Shown here one piece after another: positions 1-10,851 of a stretch of 64,000 bases of DNA; position 1 is the stretch's first letter, and each line of letters starts with the position of its first letter. Location of the stretch: the NCBI RefSeq assembly GCF_009258045.1, contig NZ_CP041166.1:620001-684000 (forward strand), in the 5' to 3' direction. The notes under the pieces were generated by a model. The model was given only the letters and a program-made list of their open reading frames with translations. It was not told where the DNA came from and did no database searches. The position numbers and the translations under genes were made by a program. The stretch is from Sulfurimonas xiamenensis. GTDB taxonomy: Bacteria; Campylobacterota; Campylobacteria; Campylobacterales; Sulfurimonadaceae.

Positions 1-236
1 AGGGTGCTTCCTTTTTTTACCATTATGCCTGATTGTGCTTTTGCTATAACTTTGCATCCGAGCAGTTCAGCAATCCGAGCCGCATCATCATTGCATGCTA
101 CAACTATCTCTTCTCTTGTTACGATACTTAGTATTACTTTTTGTTCTGCAGGAGCCAATAGATGTGTGGTTAAATCAAAGTATGAAATATCCTCTCTAAT
201 GTAATTCCAAAGTTCTTGGTCTGAAAAATTAATCAT
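1..236 (-). CDS. modD: ModD, molybdenum transport/NadC-like protein (5' part only)
   Basis: The first 78 codons are present; the gene runs off the left edge. The protein begins MINFSDQELWNYIREDIS followed by YFDLTTHLL, which resembles the N-terminal domain of ModD. ModD proteins are homologues of nicotinate-nucleotide pyrophosphorylase (NadC) found in molybdate transport operons; their exact role in molybdenum uptake is unsettled. The ATG at 236-234 overlaps the modA stop codon in an ATGA, so the two are very likely translationally coupled. The modA context supports modD over a true nadC. Domain calls beyond the N-terminal part cannot be checked here. Confidence 0.75.
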   Translation of the reverse strand, partial: MINFSDQELWNYIREDISYFDLTTHLLAPAEQKVILSIVTREEIVVACNDDAARIAELLGCKVIAKAQSGIMVKKGST

Positions 237-976
237 TTTGTATATCCATATTTTATAAAAATTTTTTTTGCTCTATCGCTCAAGATAAAGTCATAAAAGG
301 CTTTGTAGTCACTGTTGTTTTCTCCATATTTTAAAAGAACGATTCCCTGTTTAATAGGAGCATATAAAGATGTGTCAACAGAAGCCCAGTTTACATTTTC
401 TTTGTAATGAGCCATTTTAGGGCTGTATAGGGATGATTTTGCGATAAATCCTAAATCTGCCGCAGTAATTGTATATGAGACTGTCTGAGAGATAGATTCG
501 CCAAAGACAAATTTGGATTTAGCACTCTCATAAACATTGCTGTTTTTCATGGCTTCAATTGTTGCCGCACCGTATGGTGCTGTTTTTGGATTTGCTATCG
601 CTATTTTTGAGATAGAGTTATCATTAACAATTGCTATTCCTTTTGAAAAATCAATCGGTTTTATGCTTAAATATGCAAGCTCTCCCTGCGCATATACAAT
701 CGGTTTTGTAGTAGCTATTTTTTTATTATATAGAGCTTCAGGATAAAGCATGTCAGCTGCCATAAAAAGTCCATATGGTGCACCGTTTTGTATTTGGGCA
801 GTTAATTTTCCGCTGCTGCCAAGAGTTATTTCAATATCAATGTCTGGATGAATTTTTTTAAACTCAACTTTTAACTCCTCAATTGCATAACTTACATTGG
901 CTGCTACAGCTATGTTTATTTTATCTGCAAAAATAACGCTAGTCGTAAGTAAAATAGATAATAGAAATTTTTTCAT
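233..976 (-). CDS. modA: Molybdate ABC transporter substrate-binding protein ModA
   Basis: This 247-residue periplasmic protein captures molybdate (or tungstate) for an ABC importer. Residues 1-17 are a signal peptide ending VIFA. The mature part starts with the family pattern AANVSYAIEELKVEF, followed near residues 53-75 by GSSGKLTAQIQNGAPYGLF and AAD, the usual oxyanion-binding segment of ModA. Length is normal for the family. It starts 9 bases after the upstream porin gene with a clear AAAGGAG ribosome site, and its stop overlaps modD. No modB or modC lies in the window; they could follow modD to the left. Transcription probably comes from the promoter near 2801-2829. Confidence 0.95.
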   Translation of the reverse strand: MKKFLLSILLTTSVIFADKINIAVAANVSYAIEELKVEFKKIHPDIDIEITLGSSGKLTAQIQNGAPYGLFMAADMLYPEALYNKKIATTKPIVYAQGELAYLSIKPIDFSKGIAIVNDNSISKIAIANPKTAPYGAATIEAMKNSNVYESAKSKFVFGESISQTVSYTITAADLGFIAKSSLYSPKMAHYKENVNWASVDTSLYAPIKQGIVLLKYGENNSDYKAFYDFILSDRAKKIFIKYGYTK

Positions 977-985
977 TGCTCTCCT

Positions 986-2440
986 TTAAAATAGATAATT
1001 AAACTCTAAACGAGCATCTAAACTATCAGCATCTCTCTTTTTTGTATCAGTGTATCCCAATCTAAGGCGCCATTGCAGATCAGTCATGCAAGGAATATTT
1101 TGAATAAATCCGGCATAATAATAATTTTCATCATACTCACCTTTTTGCTCATCAGCATCGGTATGTAGAGCAGATAATTGGATAAATAAATCTTTATACA
1201 CTCCGTTTTGATTTGCATTGATTGATAATTCGGCACGATAGCTTTTTGTATTGGCTTTCCAGTTGTAACGAGCCATTGAACGAGTATATCCAGAAGTTGG
1301 AAAGCCTCTCCAAGGTGTTACAAGATCAGCCTCATCAAATATTTTAGAGTATGCCAAATTAAGTTTGTAAATATCATAAACTCCAACCAAACGAGCTGCT
1401 ATCATTTGCGAATCAAGCGAATCAGCATCTTTATACCCGCTGTATGACCCTTCTATACCGGCTAGACTTCCATCGTAGTTTGCACCACCAATTTTTCCGC
1501 CGCCATTGTCAAACTGTTTTATATATCGAAAACCAGGCGCAAGAGTAAAGCCATTCATGTCAATTTTGTAGTTTGCTTCAGCCATTATCTCTGAGAGAAG
1601 TTCAGGAACCCAATAAAATGATGCATCAAAGTTGAGGTTTTTAATATGTCTATTTTTAATATCCCCGGTAATAAGCGGTGCATCTGTACTTACTCCGGCT
1701 GCATTAAGATTTGTATATGAGAGTCCTTTGTGCATTGCTGAGTCATCATTCCCGTTCCAAGGATCTGAATCATCATACATCAAAACAGAGTGTGATGTTG
1801 TGTGATCTCTCAATTTTTGTTTTGTTAAATAGGCAAGTTTTATTTGCGTATGCGGTATAATTCTTGTTTCTGCCACAACACCATCAAATGTATTTGGAAT
1901 CATTTTTGTATCATTTGATTTTGTATAAAAGGTTTCTACAAGCTGGCGGCCGATATTAATTTGTGAGTTAGGAATATTTTTATAGCTTATATAGGCTTGA
2001 CCTAAAACCGTCATTGATTTACCTTCACCGTTTGTATAGTCATAACGACTCAGTACATCTTTACCTGATTTTAAAGATTCTACAGGATCACTGTTGCTGT
2101 CAAAGAATGCTTTTGAATAGTACAAACCTGTCGTAAAATCAACTCCGTAAAAAGTTGCACTTTTATATACAAGAGAACCGCCAAGACCGCTTATAACATG
2201 AGAGTTTTGCTTCTCATTCTCTTCTTCCCAATCGTAAAGAAAAGTGTTTGATCGAAGTCGTCCATAAAAAAGACCCTCTTTGAACATATCCGCAAAAGTA
2301 TCAATTGATTGAGATGGATTATTATTTACTAATTGATAGTTGCTTTTTAGCGTTTGTTTGGAGATAGGATCATTTGCATATGTGAAGGAAGCAAGAGACA
2401 GAATTGCAGCAGCTATATTTAATCTAGTTTTATTTTTCAC
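986..2440 (-). CDS. Outer-membrane porin, OprD-like
   Basis: A 484-residue outer-membrane beta-barrel protein. Residues 1-22 form a signal peptide ending FTYA. The rest is rich in alternating aromatic and polar residues and ends in FNYLF, with the C-terminal phenylalanine typical of proteins inserted by the BAM machinery. The overall pattern (FADMFKEGLFYGRLRSNTF near the start, GRQLVETFYT in the middle) resembles the OprD-type porins of Campylobacterota. It sits between the modE remnant and modA on one strand with short gaps, so it is probably co-transcribed with the molybdate genes and may admit the oxyanion. That substrate is inferred from position only. Confidence 0.8.
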   Translation of the reverse strand: MKNKTRLNIAAAILSLASFTYANDPISKQTLKSNYQLVNNNPSQSIDTFADMFKEGLFYGRLRSNTFLYDWEEENEKQNSHVISGLGGSLVYKSATFYGVDFTTGLYYSKAFFDSNSDPVESLKSGKDVLSRYDYTNGEGKSMTVLGQAYISYKNIPNSQINIGRQLVETFYTKSNDTKMIPNTFDGVVAETRIIPHTQIKLAYLTKQKLRDHTTSHSVLMYDDSDPWNGNDDSAMHKGLSYTNLNAAGVSTDAPLITGDIKNRHIKNLNFDASFYWVPELLSEIMAEANYKIDMNGFTLAPGFRYIKQFDNGGGKIGGANYDGSLAGIEGSYSGYKDADSLDSQMIAARLVGVYDIYKLNLAYSKIFDEADLVTPWRGFPTSGYTRSMARYNWKANTKSYRAELSINANQNGVYKDLFIQLSALHTDADEQKGEYDENYYYAGFIQNIPCMTDLQWRLRLGYTDTKKRDADSLDARLEFNYLF

Positions 2441-2499
2441 AAAATTTCCTTTTTTTAAAATTAATAATTTACCAAATACCTAAAATAATACTTTTTGGT

Positions 2500-2772
2500 T
2501 TACAAAAAGCAGTTATCAGCATCGCTTTTTAAAAAGTGTATATGCCCATTCTTCTCACTTATGCGTTTTGAGAGGTTGCTTAAAAAAGCATGATGCTCCT
2601 CTTCTAAAATTTTATATGTATTTATCAACTTTTTTGCATAATAAGCAAGATAAGTTCCACTACCGCCTTTTCCGCTTTCTTTAATTTTTATTAAAAGTTT
2701 CATTCAGCCTTGACCAAGAAAGCTGTGCTCAGATTTGTTTATCCATAAACGACCATTGACACTGTTTTGCAT
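2500..2772 (-). pseudogene. modE: Disrupted ModE-type molybdate regulator
   Basis: Reading from the ATG at 2772 gives MQNSVNGRLWINKSEHSF then LGQG and a TGA stop; the same frame continues directly with ATG and MKLLIKIKESGKGGSGTYL, then YYAKKLINTYKILEEEHHAFL. Intact ModE N-terminal domains begin GRLWI...SFLG(K/Q)G, have a winged helix (GSI..AA....MSYKAAW), and end with GGKGGGG..LT..G..LI..Y. The two ends are present and in frame, but the central helix-turn-helix of roughly 35-45 residues is missing and there is an in-frame stop. The 67-residue open frame 2500-2703 alone cannot bind DNA in the usual way. It lies directly before the porin and modA genes, where modE is expected. Confidence 0.8.
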
Positions 2773-2797
2773 TATCATCCATAATTAAGCTTCAAAC

Positions 2798-2821
2798 CGT
2801 AGTATATTAAAATATATAACG
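2798..2821. promoter_or_regulatory. ModE-type operator overlapping the mod promoter
   Basis: A 24-bp imperfect palindrome has half-sites CGTTATATA and CGTAGTATA facing each other across an A/T centre. This resembles the CG-TATATA-type inverted repeat bound by ModE-molybdate in other bacteria. It covers the promoter spacer and the -10 box, the position expected for a repressor. The likeness to ModE boxes is from memory of the consensus and not from an alignment. Confidence 0.6.
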
Positions 2822-2829
2822 CTTGTCAA
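2801..2829 (-). promoter_or_regulatory. Sigma-70 promoter of the molybdate locus
   Basis: On the minus strand a perfect TTGACA (2829-2824) is followed after exactly 17 bases by TATACT (2806-2801). This near-consensus promoter points into the modE remnant, porin, modA and modD. Most other promoters visible in this window have only a recognisable -10 box, so the full -35 stands out. Confidence 0.75.
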
Positions 2830-2878
2830 TCAACATAGATAAAAAGATGCAAGAAGAATATCTTGCATCTGTAATTGT

Positions 2879-5098
2879 TTAGAAAGGTAATAGATTTTTA
2901 ATTGAGTCGCTAGCAGAACCTGTGTCAATAGAACTTGATTCAGAGAGTAGTTTCTCAAGTGCGCCGCTTTGTGAGCCGATGAGAGAATTGATGTCAGGAA
3001 TAGCCGAAGCAGAACTATTTACTCCTTTTAGCTGCTCTTGCATCTTCTCATTAAGCATCGTCTGCAGCTGGGCTTCATACTTTTTCGCTTCTTTTGAAAA
3101 AACGCCGCTGAGCGCACCTGATATTTTTTTATCCAGATCCGTTGTAACATCCAGTGCAGGAGACTCTAACGAGCCTGTAGCATCTGTTTTTATGTAAAAG
3201 CTCTTTACCTCAGAGAGCGTAGAGTTGACGATATCTGCATACTTCTCATCAAGTCCGTCAATCGAGACAGCGGCATTTTTAAAATCCAGGCTGCTCTTTA
3301 GCTCCAGTTTTGACAAGCCGTATACATCAGCATTTCCTTGAAGTGCAATATCACTTTTTTTAAGAGTCAGCGAAGAGAGAGCAAGATTGTCAAGAGGCAC
3401 TCTTTTTGCGCCAAACACTGCACTTTCGTGAGCCACTTCACCAAGCCTGTCATCTTTGCCTTCAAGCACAAACTTCTCTACGATATCTCCATCGCTTGTT
3501 ACTTTAAAAGTGGTGGCTTTGCCAAGAAGTTTTTGGTTATCTGCTATGTCATTTATAGTTCCCGTGAAATCTTGGGTTTTAAGCTTTCCGCTCAGATCTA
3601 CTTTTGCAGCGTAGATGTCCGGAGAGGGAACCTCTTCTTTGAACTTTATCCATCTTCCTTCTCCGCGTGGAGGTTTTGGAGGCTCGACTTTTGCTTCGCT
3701 TTTCATATAAGGCTGGGCAAGTGTGTAATATTTTTTTGCCATTGCTATATACTCTTTTATCTTCTCGCCAAAGATAGTGCCCACGACATTTATCGCGCCG
3801 CTTCCATCAAGTGAATAGGCACTTTTGAGACTGTTGTAATCACTCTGCGGAGCATTTTTTATCTCGCTGATAAGTTTGGATATGCGTGCTTTGTCATCCG
3901 CAAAATCTTTTTTAATAGATGCGAGCTTTGCTTTATGCGCATCTATCTTCTTCTTAAATGCAGTAATGTCATCCTTTAGTTTTAGAAGCTGCGCTGGGTC
4001 TTTTGATTTTGAAGCAGACTTTATAGCTTCTAGATCTTTTTTATACTCATCCAGTTTATTTGAACTAAGCTCCTCTTTTGATACTCTCTCCCATTTTGCT
4101 TTTATCTCATCTATCTCTTTTTGAGCTTGGTTATAAACTTTTAGAGATTTTAGATCTGCGTTTGCAAGAAGCTCTTTTGGAGTCGGCAGTTTTATTTGCG
4201 GCATTGCAAACAAAGATGTGCTTGATGCAGCCGTGCCTCTCTGCTCTTTTGCAGAAGATGGTTTCGGGTTTGAGCTTGGCGTGTCAAAGCCGATGCCTGT
4301 AACCTGAACAAGCTCCATATGCGTCTTTCTTAAAAGAAGCGCGTTAAAATCAAGGTCTGCCAAGATATTTTGGATACTTACGCTGTTTGTCTTGCCGTTG
4401 TCGTCTTGTACCTCAAGATTGCTTATGCGTAAAGATGCATCGCCAAAGTTTGTCTCTACATCTCTAATGAGCACATCTTTGCCCGTTGCACTTGAGAGTC
4501 CTTTTTCAAGTGCAAATTTTATAACAGGGTCTATTACAAGTATTGCAACTGCAAGAGTCAAGGCAGTTACTGCGGCGAATACGCCTACACCCATGATACG
4601 AAAAGTGCTGTCTTTTTTATCGCTTTTTTTAAGAATGCCAAACTTTGCCAAAAGCGGGTATCTCTCAATAAAAAGAACAATTTTGCCTCGTGAGGTATTT
4701 ATGACTCTGTTTAAGATAAGGTAAAGAGGAAGGGAAAGGATCACAGCGACTACGAACGAGCCAAGGACTATGGTGTTGTTAAAGTATGTAAGGCGCATAA
4801 TGCCGCTGTTGTACATGGCACTCCATAATCCTTGGAGTCCCTCTGCGCTAAGGAGCATATATCCGAATGATTCAAAAAGCGGGTCGAAAACATAGCCTAC
4901 ACCTGCAAAAAATGCACCGGAGACCAGAAAAAGTCCGAAATGGATATTTATTAGAAGTGCCAAAAAGATGATGAGAGCCGTTTGAACCCCGCTTAGAGGG
5001 GTAAGCCCCATGACCATACCTAAAACAATAGCCAGTGTTACCTGCCACGGCGTCTGACCTGAGTTCAATGCTTTGAAGAGCTTAATTATAAAATTCAC
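2879..5098 (-). CDS. Fused TIGR03546/TIGR03545-like membrane protein
   Basis: A 739-residue protein of unknown function. Residues about 1-135 are a hydrophobic DUF2062-like unit (TPWQVTLAIVLGMVMGLTPL) with several membrane segments. A further membrane helix lies near 168-192, followed by a long soluble part with a lysine-rich coiled coil around 330-430 and a C-terminal region (about 490-690) of repeated beta-rich segments resembling AsmA-like periplasmic proteins. In other bacteria the families TIGR03546 (short, membrane) and TIGR03545 (long) are usually separate neighbouring genes; here both seem joined in one frame. It stands alone between the mod locus and pyrH. A role in the envelope is inferred from topology only. 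Confidence 0.65.
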   Translation of the reverse strand: MNFIIKLFKALNSGQTPWQVTLAIVLGMVMGLTPLSGVQTALIIFLALLINIHFGLFLVSGAFFAGVGYVFDPLFESFGYMLLSAEGLQGLWSAMYNSGIMRLTYFNNTIVLGSFVVAVILSLPLYLILNRVINTSRGKIVLFIERYPLLAKFGILKKSDKKDSTFRIMGVGVFAAVTALTLAVAILVIDPVIKFALEKGLSSATGKDVLIRDVETNFGDASLRISNLEVQDDNGKTNSVSIQNILADLDFNALLLRKTHMELVQVTGIGFDTPSSNPKPSSAKEQRGTAASSTSLFAMPQIKLPTPKELLANADLKSLKVYNQAQKEIDEIKAKWERVSKEELSSNKLDEYKKDLEAIKSASKSKDPAQLLKLKDDITAFKKKIDAHKAKLASIKKDFADDKARISKLISEIKNAPQSDYNSLKSAYSLDGSGAINVVGTIFGEKIKEYIAMAKKYYTLAQPYMKSEAKVEPPKPPRGEGRWIKFKEEVPSPDIYAAKVDLSGKLKTQDFTGTINDIADNQKLLGKATTFKVTSDGDIVEKFVLEGKDDRLGEVAHESAVFGAKRVPLDNLALSSLTLKKSDIALQGNADVYGLSKLELKSSLDFKNAAVSIDGLDEKYADIVNSTLSEVKSFYIKTDATGSLESPALDVTTDLDKKISGALSGVFSKEAKKYEAQLQTMLNEKMQEQLKGVNSSASAIPDINSLIGSQSGALEKLLSESSSIDTGSASDSIKNLLPF

Positions 5099-5224
5099 GC
5101 TTATGCCTTGTGCTTAGATAATTTATCTGTTAGTTTAGCATATTTAATTGTTTTCACTTAGTTTAGTAATAAAAATAATTTAGAGCAGCTTAAAAAACAA
5201 AGCAAAACAAAAGCCAAGTTTAAG

Positions 5225-5230
5225 TATAAT
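5225..5230 (+). promoter_or_regulatory. -10 box of the pyrH promoter
   Basis: TATAAT lies 71 bases before the pyrH ATG in an A-rich intergenic stretch. No good -35 is present, which is common for housekeeping promoters in Campylobacterota. Confidence 0.5.
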
Positions 5231-5292
5231 TCACAGAATATAAATATACAAAGTATTTCTAAAAACTACAAAAATTTTCAGAAATGTTTTAA

Positions 5293-6015
<723 letters not shown>

Positions 6016-6025
6016 CTTATCAAAT

Positions 6026-6061
6026 AAGCGGGAGGGACTTTGTTCCTTCCGCGGAATAATT
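6026..6061 (+). repeat. 36-bp hairpin repeat, copy 1
   Basis: First of two identical 36-base direct repeats in the pyrH-rpoZ spacer. Each contains GCGGGAGGGA, a CTTTG loop, and TTCCTTCCGC, which can fold as RNA into a 10-bp stem using two G-U pairs. The base composition (G/C-rich) contrasts with the surroundings. Confidence 0.85.
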
Positions 6062-6106: not shown

Positions 6107-6142
6107 AAGCGGGAGGGACTTTGTTCCTTCCGCGGAATAATT
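6107..6142 (+). repeat. 36-bp hairpin repeat, copy 2
   Basis: Identical to the copy 81 bases upstream and in the same orientation. It ends 18 bases before the rpoZ ATG, so the hairpin would sit just ahead of the rpoZ ribosome site (AAAGGAA). Confidence 0.85.
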
Positions 6143-8560: not shown

Positions 8561-9760
8561 ATGTTACAAGAGGCTCTAAGAGAGATAAAAAGAGGAACGG
8601 CTGAAATTATAGACAGTCAAAATATTGAAAAATTGTTGCAGGCATATTTTGATGAAGGCAAAACATATACTGTAAAGGCAGGTTTTGACCCGACTGCACC
8701 TGATTTGCATCTTGGGCATACGGTGCTTTTACAAAAACTTGCAATATTTCAAAAATATGGTGCAAAAATTCAGTTTTTAATAGGTGATTTTACTGCTCAG
8801 ATAGGTGATCCTTCAGGTAAAAATATTACAAGAAAAACATTAAGCAAAACAGAAGTTTTGGAAAATGCAAAAAGTTACAAAGAGCAAGTTTTTAAAATTT
8901 TAGACTCTAGCAAGACAGAAGTAGTTTTTAACTCAGAGTGGATAAATTTGCTTGGAGCATCGGGCATGTTAACATTGACAACAACTTTTAATGTCGCAAG
9001 AATGCTTGAACGCGATGATTTTGACAAAAGATATAAAAGCGGCACATCTATCTCAATAAGTGAGTTTATTTATCCTTTATTACAAGGATATGACAGTGTA
9101 CATCTTGAAAGTGACATAGAGATAGGCGGGACTGATCAAAAGTTTAACCTATTGATGGGTCGACATCTTCAGCGCGCATATGAGATAGGAAAAGAGCAGT
9201 CTGTTCTTATGATGCCTATTTTAGAGGGTCTTGACGGTGTGCAGAAGATGAGTAAATCTTTAAATAATTATATAGGTGTTACTGATGAACCAAATGATAT
9301 GTTTGGAAAAGTGTTAAGCATATCCGATGAGCTTATGTGGAGATATTACGAACTTTTGAGCACAAAAACTCTTGATGAAATTCAAAAACTTAAAGAGGGT
9401 GTAGAAAACGGCTCTCTTCACCCAAAAACGGTTAAAGAAAACTTGGCTTTGGAAATTACAGCAAGGTTTCATTCTGTAGATTTAGCTAAAGCGGCAAAAG
9501 ATGAGTTTGATAAAGTACACTCAAATAACCAAATTCCATCTGAGATTGATGAGTATACCAGTGATGAAGAGATATGGATAGCCAAAGCATTAGTTGATTG
9601 CAAACTTTCACCTTCTACTTCTCAAGCAAGAAGAGATATTAAGCAAGGGGCTGTTAAAATAAATCAAGAAAAAATCAATGATGAGCAGTTACAATTAGGA
9701 AGCGGGGAGTATATACTTCAAGTTGGAAAAAGAAAATTTGCAAAGTTAAAGGTGAATTAA
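8561..9760 (+). CDS. tyrS: Tyrosyl-tRNA synthetase
   Basis: TyrS charges tRNA-Tyr. The 399-residue protein is a class I enzyme of the longer bacterial type: HLGHT at 50-54 is the HIGH signature, KMSKS is at 229-233, and an S4 RNA-binding domain ends the protein (SQARRDIKQGAVKINQEKI). It follows spoT by 23 bases. Its TAA stop overlaps the next ATG by one base (TAATG), suggesting coupled translation. Confidence 0.97.
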   Translation: MLQEALREIKRGTAEIIDSQNIEKLLQAYFDEGKTYTVKAGFDPTAPDLHLGHTVLLQKLAIFQKYGAKIQFLIGDFTAQIGDPSGKNITRKTLSKTEVLENAKSYKEQVFKILDSSKTEVVFNSEWINLLGASGMLTLTTTFNVARMLERDDFDKRYKSGTSISISEFIYPLLQGYDSVHLESDIEIGGTDQKFNLLMGRHLQRAYEIGKEQSVLMMPILEGLDGVQKMSKSLNNYIGVTDEPNDMFGKVLSISDELMWRYYELLSTKTLDEIQKLKEGVENGSLHPKTVKENLALEITARFHSVDLAKAAKDEFDKVHSNNQIPSEIDEYTSDEEIWIAKALVDCKLSPSTSQARRDIKQGAVKINQEKINDEQLQLGSGEYILQVGKRKFAKLKVN

Positions 9761-10851
9761 TGAGTTTTAAATCATTTAAAATTGGTAAGCATACTATCGA
9801 AAAGCCTATAGTTCAAGGTGGAATGGGCGTAGGTATAAGTTGGGATCAGCTTGCCGGAACCGTATCAAAAGAGGGTGGGCTTGGTGTTATTAGTTCAGTT
9901 GGAACTGGTTATTATAAAAATAAAGAATATGCTTCAAAATTAATATCAGGCAGACCACTTGATACTTTTAGTTTTTATTCGAAAGAGGGTTTTGACGCAA
10001 TAATAAAAAATGCCAGAGAAATATGCGGCGATAAACCTCTTGCAGCAAATGTGCTATATGCTATAAATGATTATGGACGAGTGGTACGAGATGCTTGTGA
10101 GAGCGGTATTGATATTATTATTACCGGAGCGGGTTTGCCTACGAATATGCCGGAGTTTACAGAGGGGTATCCTGATGTTGCACTTGTTCCTATTGTTTCA
10201 TCTGCAAAAGCTTTAAAAATTATCTGTAAAAGATGGCAAAAAAGATACAACAGAATTCCCGATGCTGTAGTACTTGAAGGGCCAAAAAGCGGCGGACATC
10301 AAGGCTTTACATATGAGCAGTGTAAAATGCAAGAGAATCAACTTGAAAACTTGGTAAAACCGGTTGTAGAAGAGGCGGCTTTATGGGGTGATATTCCTGT
10401 GATTGCTGCAGGTGGTATTTGGGATAAGAGTGATATAGAAGAGATGCTCTCTTTGGGCGCTAGAGGTGTTCAAATGGGAACTCGTTTTATAGGTACTTTT
10501 GAGTGTGATGCACATGAAAATTTTAAAAAAGTTTTACTAGATGCTAAAAAAGAGGATATTCAACTCTTCTCATCGCCTGTTGGATATCCTGCTCAAGGAG
10601 TTAGAACAAATTTAACAAAACTTGTGGAAAAAAGAGAAGGGCCTGTGATTAAATGTATTTCTAACTGTGTTGCACCTTGTAATCGTGGGGAAGAAGCTAA
10701 GGAAGTTGGTTATTGTATAGCGGACAGATTAAGTGATGCATATCAAGGCAATCTTGAAACAGGGCTTTTCTTCTCTGGGACTAACGGATATAGATTAGAG
10801 AGTATAATTTCTGTAAAAGAGCTGATGGATAAATTAATCAACGGCGAATAG
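9760..10851 (+). CDS. Nitronate monooxygenase / FabK-type flavin oxidoreductase
   Basis: A 363-residue FMN-dependent TIM-barrel protein of the 2-nitropropane dioxygenase family. QGGMGVGIS (19-27), GPKSGGHQG near 173, AAGGIWD and GVQMGTRF form the FMN- and phosphate-binding loops. The family includes nitronate monooxygenases and the enoyl-ACP reductase FabK; the sequence alone does not separate them. A cysteine cluster near the C-terminus (CISNCVAPC) is unusual for simple nitronate enzymes and could bind metal. It is coupled to tyrS and followed 7 bases later by the amidase gene. Confidence 0.8.
   Translation: MSFKSFKIGKHTIEKPIVQGGMGVGISWDQLAGTVSKEGGLGVISSVGTGYYKNKEYASKLISGRPLDTFSFYSKEGFDAIIKNAREICGDKPLAANVLYAINDYGRVVRDACESGIDIIITGAGLPTNMPEFTEGYPDVALVPIVSSAKALKIICKRWQKRYNRIPDAVVLEGPKSGGHQGFTYEQCKMQENQLENLVKPVVEEAALWGDIPVIAAGGIWDKSDIEEMLSLGARGVQMGTRFIGTFECDAHENFKKVLLDAKKEDIQLFSSPVGYPAQGVRTNLTKLVEKREGPVIKCISNCVAPCNRGEEAKEVGYCIADRLSDAYQGNLETGLFFSGTNGYRLESIISVKELMDKLINGE

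Follow-up and report, generated by a model that had tools for sequence, protein, structure and literature searches.

Does the breakage of a repressor gene at the head of a molybdate operon leave that operon permanently switched on, or can a second repressor encoded elsewhere keep control of it? The question is raised by a window of 64,000 nucleotides of Sulfurimonas xiamenensis DNA (i.e. NZ_CP041166.1, positions 620,001 to 684,000 of the forward strand; window coordinates are counted from its first base). The original prediction for this window was a modE gene broken twice, with loss of the repressor rendering molybdate uptake and the adjacent porin constitutive. Molybdoenzymes, nitrate reductase among them, are important to this genus. 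The window genome is a single contig of 1.92 Mb with an estimated completeness of 100%, and comparisons were drawn from 135 genomes of the genus, one per species.

The region 2469-2772 on the minus strand was identified as what is left of a full-length ModE gene (hereafter ModE1); in relatives the gene is intact at the corresponding position. Descent from this intact gene was evident from synteny and from DNA alignment with two orthologous loci, L010 and L011; for L011, the intact ModE1 locus of genome G005, 376 of 470 aligned bases were identical over window positions 2431-2900, flanks included. A ModE profile search located the same remnant (G000:C1:622524-622694, E 3.1e-17 for one genome). 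ModE1 immediately precedes the same porin and modA in G004, G005, G101, G112, G042 (where the first residues are cut off by a contig end), G097 and G091, and a more diverged ModE occupies this position in G007, G033 and G079. A porin-based scan of contigs returned 10 loci, seven of them from Sulfurimonas, the closest porin being 69% identical.

Lesions were counted against five orthologues (i.e. G004, G005, G101, G112 and G091). Read on the minus strand, the ATG at 2772 opens MQNSVNGRLWINKSEHSFLGQG, which is interrupted after GQG by a TGA codon at 2704-2706 where all five orthologues encode Arg; the same frame then continues as MKLLIKIK followed by ESGKGGSGTYLAYYAKKLINTYKILEEEHHAFLSNLSKRISEKNGHIHFLKS. 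The N-terminal segment (segment A, 2680-2772) comprises 31 codons including the nonsense codon. At the junction 2680/2679, 38 codons (114 nt, in frame) that encode the helix-turn-helix (HTH) core are absent, and segment A is joined in frame to the last part of the winged HTH plus linker (segment B, 2524-2679). A further 374 nt are absent at about 2523, a frameshifting deletion that removes the molybdate-binding TOBE domains, and the C-terminus, ITAFCKPKSIILGIW plus its stop codon, persists at 2469-2516 (segment C) in another frame than segments A and B. Alignment with intact relatives thus bore out the in-frame domain ends, the stop after GQG and the missing HTH core that had been predicted; the gene is indeed broken, but a count of two overlooked the 374-nt deletion, there being at least three lesions in addition to a shortened modE-porin spacer. 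None of the repeats listed for window positions 2420-2900 was placed at either deletion joint so as to explain the deletion.

The lesions leave open a frame of 67 codons (2500-2703, minus strand) without the HTH core and both TOBE domains. The NCBIfam ModE_repress model matched this frame only partially (positions 48-92 of 100; E 1.2e-4), and its 22 bits, against a cut-off of 98.5, together with the 38 missing codons place the remnant outside the N-terminal winged-HTH ModE domain. Pfam searches with the 67-aa frame or the window copy gave no match up to E 1. Domain searches of the window copy detected no TOBE match, and the 374-nt deletion and lost frame place the remnant outside the C-terminal tandem molybdate-binding Mop/TOBE domains. 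These lesions show that the remnant, as sequenced, could make neither a DNA-binding nor a molybdate-binding protein.

The age of the break was examined through codon substitution. Over the 95 retained codons, dN/dS of the remnant was 0.095 to G005, 0.081 to G004, 0.071 to G112, 0.052 to G101 and 0.107 to G091, synonymous sites being nearly saturated. Among the intact ModE1 genes of G004, G005, G101 and G112 the values were 0.055-0.079, the near-identical G101-G112 pair having no nonsynonymous change, and between the window genome and G005 both modA (0.159) and the porin (0.121) exceeded the remnant. Segment B (50 codons) exhibited 18.5-21.3 nonsynonymous changes in the five comparisons with the window genome vs 0-8 in ten comparisons among intact genes; for the one pair tested the counts were 20:20 vs 6:23 (Fisher P = 0.023). 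The whole remnant therefore does not appear clearly relaxed, and relaxed selection is visible only in segment B. From this pattern, ModE1 looks to have been under selection for most of its history and to have broken fairly recently; the remnant is a decayed copy of the operon-linked repressor, and its breakage is probably recent. Given a recent break, the fact that this one genome has kept an operator says little about selection. An independently broken ModE1 was observed in the draft genome G023 (97% complete; L140 4051-4775), with a frameshifting deletion after GGKGGGG and a kept operator; a ModE profile search found no ModE2 (the second ModE described below) in G023, indicating that loss of ModE1 need not be compensated.

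Upstream of the remnant, a sigma-70-like promoter (TTGACA-N17-TATACT, 2801-2829, minus strand) matches the consensus at 11 of 12 positions and is identical in L011. The strength ascribed to this promoter in the original prediction holds as far as the consensus match is concerned, but another 11/12 site was present on the plus strand and the four sites found in total were not above shuffled sequence (mean 2.9, sd 1.9); conservation in L011 appears to be better evidence for the promoter than the consensus scan. The hairpin/promoter scan also placed a terminator-like hairpin of the upstream gene (2879-5098) at 2845-2870 on the minus strand. Farther along the window, an exact 36-nt direct repeat (6026-6061 and 6107-6142, 81 nt start to start) lies between a pyrH-like gene and the next gene.

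Overlapping the promoter spacer and the -10 element is a candidate ModE operator, CGTTATATATTTTAATATACTACG (2798-2821, minus strand), which departs from the palindrome CGTTATAT-N8-ATATAACG at two positions. This 24-bp block is identical to that of G005, an intact relative, and it scored 31.7 bits with a matrix built from 17 sites of relatives, the same 24 bases from G005 being among the training sites. Across the scanned loci (818 kb), 73 sites reached at least 16 bits, the 17 training sites included, as compared to one site with the reversed control. In the whole genome only three sites had two or fewer mismatches: one beside ModE2, one at the remnant promoter and one (C1:716671) that was taken as a chance match as it lies inside a coding frame. 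Matches with three mismatches were left unused; at three or fewer mismatches there were 17 sites per strand, below the backward-pattern control (25; not split by mismatch). Promoter and predicted ModE operator are both retained at the remnant.

The genes downstream encode, on the minus strand, an OprD-like porin (986-2440; 24.5 bits with Pfam OprD, whose cut-off of 25 is narrowly missed), the molybdate-binding protein ModA (233-976; TIGR01256 above cut-off) and ModD (1-236; TIGR01334 above cut-off), of which the 5' part lies in the window and the rest continues to its left (L003 11392-12237). The kept promoter and operator would now drive porin-modA-modD directly, with the remnant serving as an untranslated or poorly translated leader. 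The description of this locus as a molybdate operon is apt for these three genes but does not extend to mop-modB-modC (L008 8352-10295, with modB-modC at 8746-10295), which is located approximately 1.06 Mb away along the contig. The matrix scan detected no ModE operator of at least 13 bits at the mop-modB-modC operon of this genome, and porin-modA-modD would accordingly control only part of the uptake system. In many relatives mop-modB-modC is contiguous with modA.

The suggested search for a second modE was productive. An intact gene for a 260-aa protein, ModE2, is situated at C1:1417618-1418400 (L004 7619-8401), approximately 0.8 Mb from the remnant along the contig. A single open frame contains the ModE domain (ModE_repress 102.5 bits, cut-off 98.5; HTH_1) and two TOBE domains, with Mop above cut-off. 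Both ModE2 (166.5 bits) and the intact ModE1 of G005 (163.9 bits) fall below the cut-off of 369 bits for the E. coli-type equivalog NF007957. The dN/dS of ModE2 to its relative in G005 was 0.073, with synonymous sites saturated. Judged on its frame and domains, ModE2 is intact. In a tree, ModE1 and ModE2 formed separate clades, with a program warning of long branches near the split; the ModE2 clade had 22 rows, of which 13 were linked to znu or fec genes, two to mod genes and seven to neither within the stretch examined. The HTH recognition-helix stretch MKMSYKAAW and the operator consensus are common to both clades.

In the window genome, ModE2 is preceded by a zinc-type ABC operon and followed by a FecB-TonB-FecCD operon, and an operator with a single mismatch to the consensus is found 43-66 nt beyond the ModE2 stop codon. 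Among 18 of the 22 clade rows (L122, L128, L129 and L130 being left out), an operator with two or fewer mismatches was present 45-121 nt downstream of ModE2 in 11 loci; the best matches in the other seven had 5-6 mismatches, and reversed controls had 4-6. The downstream operon (L004 8856-13903) encodes a FecB-type binding protein, a TonB-dependent receptor and a FecCD permease with its ATPase, the ModE operator lying between it and ModE2, and modD is near a FecB/TonB-type operon in some relatives. This operon may provide a route by which molybdenum or tungsten crosses the outer membrane.

Control of an unlinked mod operon by ModE2 was assessed by genome co-occurrence. Searches of the 135 genomes with ModE and ModB yielded 16 genomes in which ModE2 and an unlinked mod operon were present and ModE1 was not found; the contrast group consisted of 20 genomes without a full-length ModE, three of which carry an HTH-only ModE. 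At a threshold of 13 bits, an operator was present at the unlinked mod operon in 11/16 ModE2-only genomes vs 0/20 (Fisher P = 7e-6), both groups being the genomes fetched rather than all existing ones, and related genomes being non-independent samples. At 16 bits the counts were 10/16 vs 0/20 (P = 3e-5); many of the sampled genomes are drafts, in which ModE1 may be missed although present. Reversed-control operators numbered 0 and 0 in the scripted count of the two groups, made before DNA of genome G164 was added; the mod operon of G164, counted among the 11, has a 24.7-bit operator upstream of the porin. Five of the 16 ModE2-only genomes had no operator at the mod operon in the 13-bit matrix scan. 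Genome G113 was kept in the ModE2-only group, as the additional partial ModE that it carries at the end of a contig is 74% identical to ModE2 and 48% to ModE1, and one of the 20 contrast genomes, G085, offered only 172 nt of contig upstream of the porin match. Two genomes were left out, G036 (no modB found) and G120 (ModE2 linked to modBC). The HTH-only ModE-like proteins, encoded by frames of 139-151 aa, match the N-terminal part of the profile only (G080:C1:1635836-1636150, G031:C1:1424874-1425191 and G153:C1:183292-183594), and no E. coli-type operator was found at the mod operons of these three genomes. The co-occurrence supports an action of ModE2 on unlinked mod operons.

Taken with the shared recognition helix, this co-occurrence suggests that ModE2 binds the 2798-2821 operator when molybdate is plentiful and so represses porin-modA-modD in trans. 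We consider it probable that the operon is still controlled by ModE2 and molybdate rather than permanently on; loss of ModE1 would be tolerable because ModE2 covers for it. The principal competing explanation is that the death of ModE1 has made porin-modA-modD constitutive and that ModE2 serves only its own TonB/FecB-type operon. ModE1 is clearly dead and ModE2 sits beside an operator of its own; a division of labour is allowed by G005 and G039, which hold both paralogues, each with nearby operators, and in Geobacter metallireducens a ModE without a DNA-binding domain is reported to be accompanied by fading sites (PMC2700814). Such specialisation is, however, difficult to reconcile with the same operator recurring at unlinked mod operons of ModE2-only genomes, and with a recognition-helix stretch and operator consensus that the two paralogues have in common, and we regard it as rather unlikely, though a serious contender. 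Of the original prediction, loss of the local repressor thus stands, but its constitutive consequence is not well supported, given an intact ModE2, a kept operator and the 11/16 vs 0/20 distribution.

The region between the remnant and the porin has also changed. The modE-porin spacer is 28 nt (2441-2468, minus strand) as compared to 155-159 nt in L010 and L011. In other members of the genus, the leader of the mod porin contains an element of approximately 85 nt with two hairpins and six-base loops (L088 6427-6511, minus strand, and L087, L089, L090, L091, L094, L097 and L134). A model built from these eight sequences recovered the same eight loci and no more in the 135 genomes, one copy each, in a search whose filters can lose weak matches; the element was absent from the window genome by this search. 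Rfam gave no match at E 1 or below for window 1-6000, and for five related loci gave four weak sub-gathering matches, none in the modE-porin spacer; the spacers of L010, L011 and L012 were without a match. ANTAR targets have a layout with A1/G4 loop positions. An identity of the element as an ANTAR target was rejected: two loops of six are alike, but the A1/G4 positions do not fit. A broader and quite speculative scenario is that part of Sulfurimonas had two layers of mod control, a ModE1 operator and this undescribed RNA leader upstream of the mod porin, and that the present lineage lost local regulator and leader together, its operon moving under a trans-acting ModE2 that also controls the TonB-dependent FecB/FecCD-type operon, through which molybdenum or tungsten might be taken up by a new route.

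Far less probable is a functional short form, in which a restart of translation at the TGA-ATG overlap would yield the 67-aa product, acting, for example, as a decoy dimerisation partner of ModE2. Segments A and B are in frame with each other and dN/dS over the retained codons remains low (0.052-0.107 in the five comparisons), but such a product would have neither the HTH core nor either TOBE domain, nonsynonymous change is in excess in segment B, the C-terminal remnant is out of frame, and the pair of deletions was found in none of the other ModE loci fetched and classified. Least probable of all is that modE1 is intact and was misassembled or misread, as two large deletions, a point nonsense mutation, a shortened spacer and a segment B nonsynonymous excess form an untypical error pattern, and the single-contig assembly is estimated to be 100% complete.

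Control of porin-modA-modD by ModE2 would make this locus a natural case in which a local repressor dies, its operator is kept and a paralogue is able to cover. It would also illustrate how a broken regulator next door can mislead one into calling an operon constitutive, and the locus offers an easy way to test trans-regulation in a genus of environmental importance. A literature search for ModE in Sulfurimonas or Epsilonproteobacteria, or as a pseudogene, returned no title on this locus among the matches listed; the term also matches 'mode', and unpublished status is not implied.

Intact orthologues and ModE2 resemble known ModE in carrying the full domain set (TIGR00637 plus two Mop/TOBE domains), whereas the window copy is a pseudogene without the HTH core and the TOBE domains. 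In its arrangement the 24-bp operator corresponds to the E. coli-type consensus, ATCGNTATATA-N6-TATATANCGAT, given in a report that describes such operators and HTH-only ModE proteins (PMC545781). Redundant ModE paralogues are described in two reports on Rhodobacter capsulatus (PMC6925177, PMC7294313), where MopA or MopB alone represses mopA-modABC, anfA and morAB via Mo-boxes (PMC6925177). Sulfurimonas likewise can have two ModE-type paralogues in one genome; unlike MopA/MopB as presented there, one paralogue here is dead, the survivor is encoded outside the mod operon, and redundancy is suggested by genome co-occurrence. Decay of ModE with operators remaining is reported for G. metallireducens, whose ModE is described as having lost the DNA-binding domain, with operators that are vestigial and no full-length modE left (PMC2700814). 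In that organism the TOBE part is still present as a protein, whereas the window copy has been destroyed in both parts, beside an intact operator and in a genome with a second ModE. Paralogue redundancy and ModE decay being already known, the window case is a new instance of these phenomena rather than a new kind.
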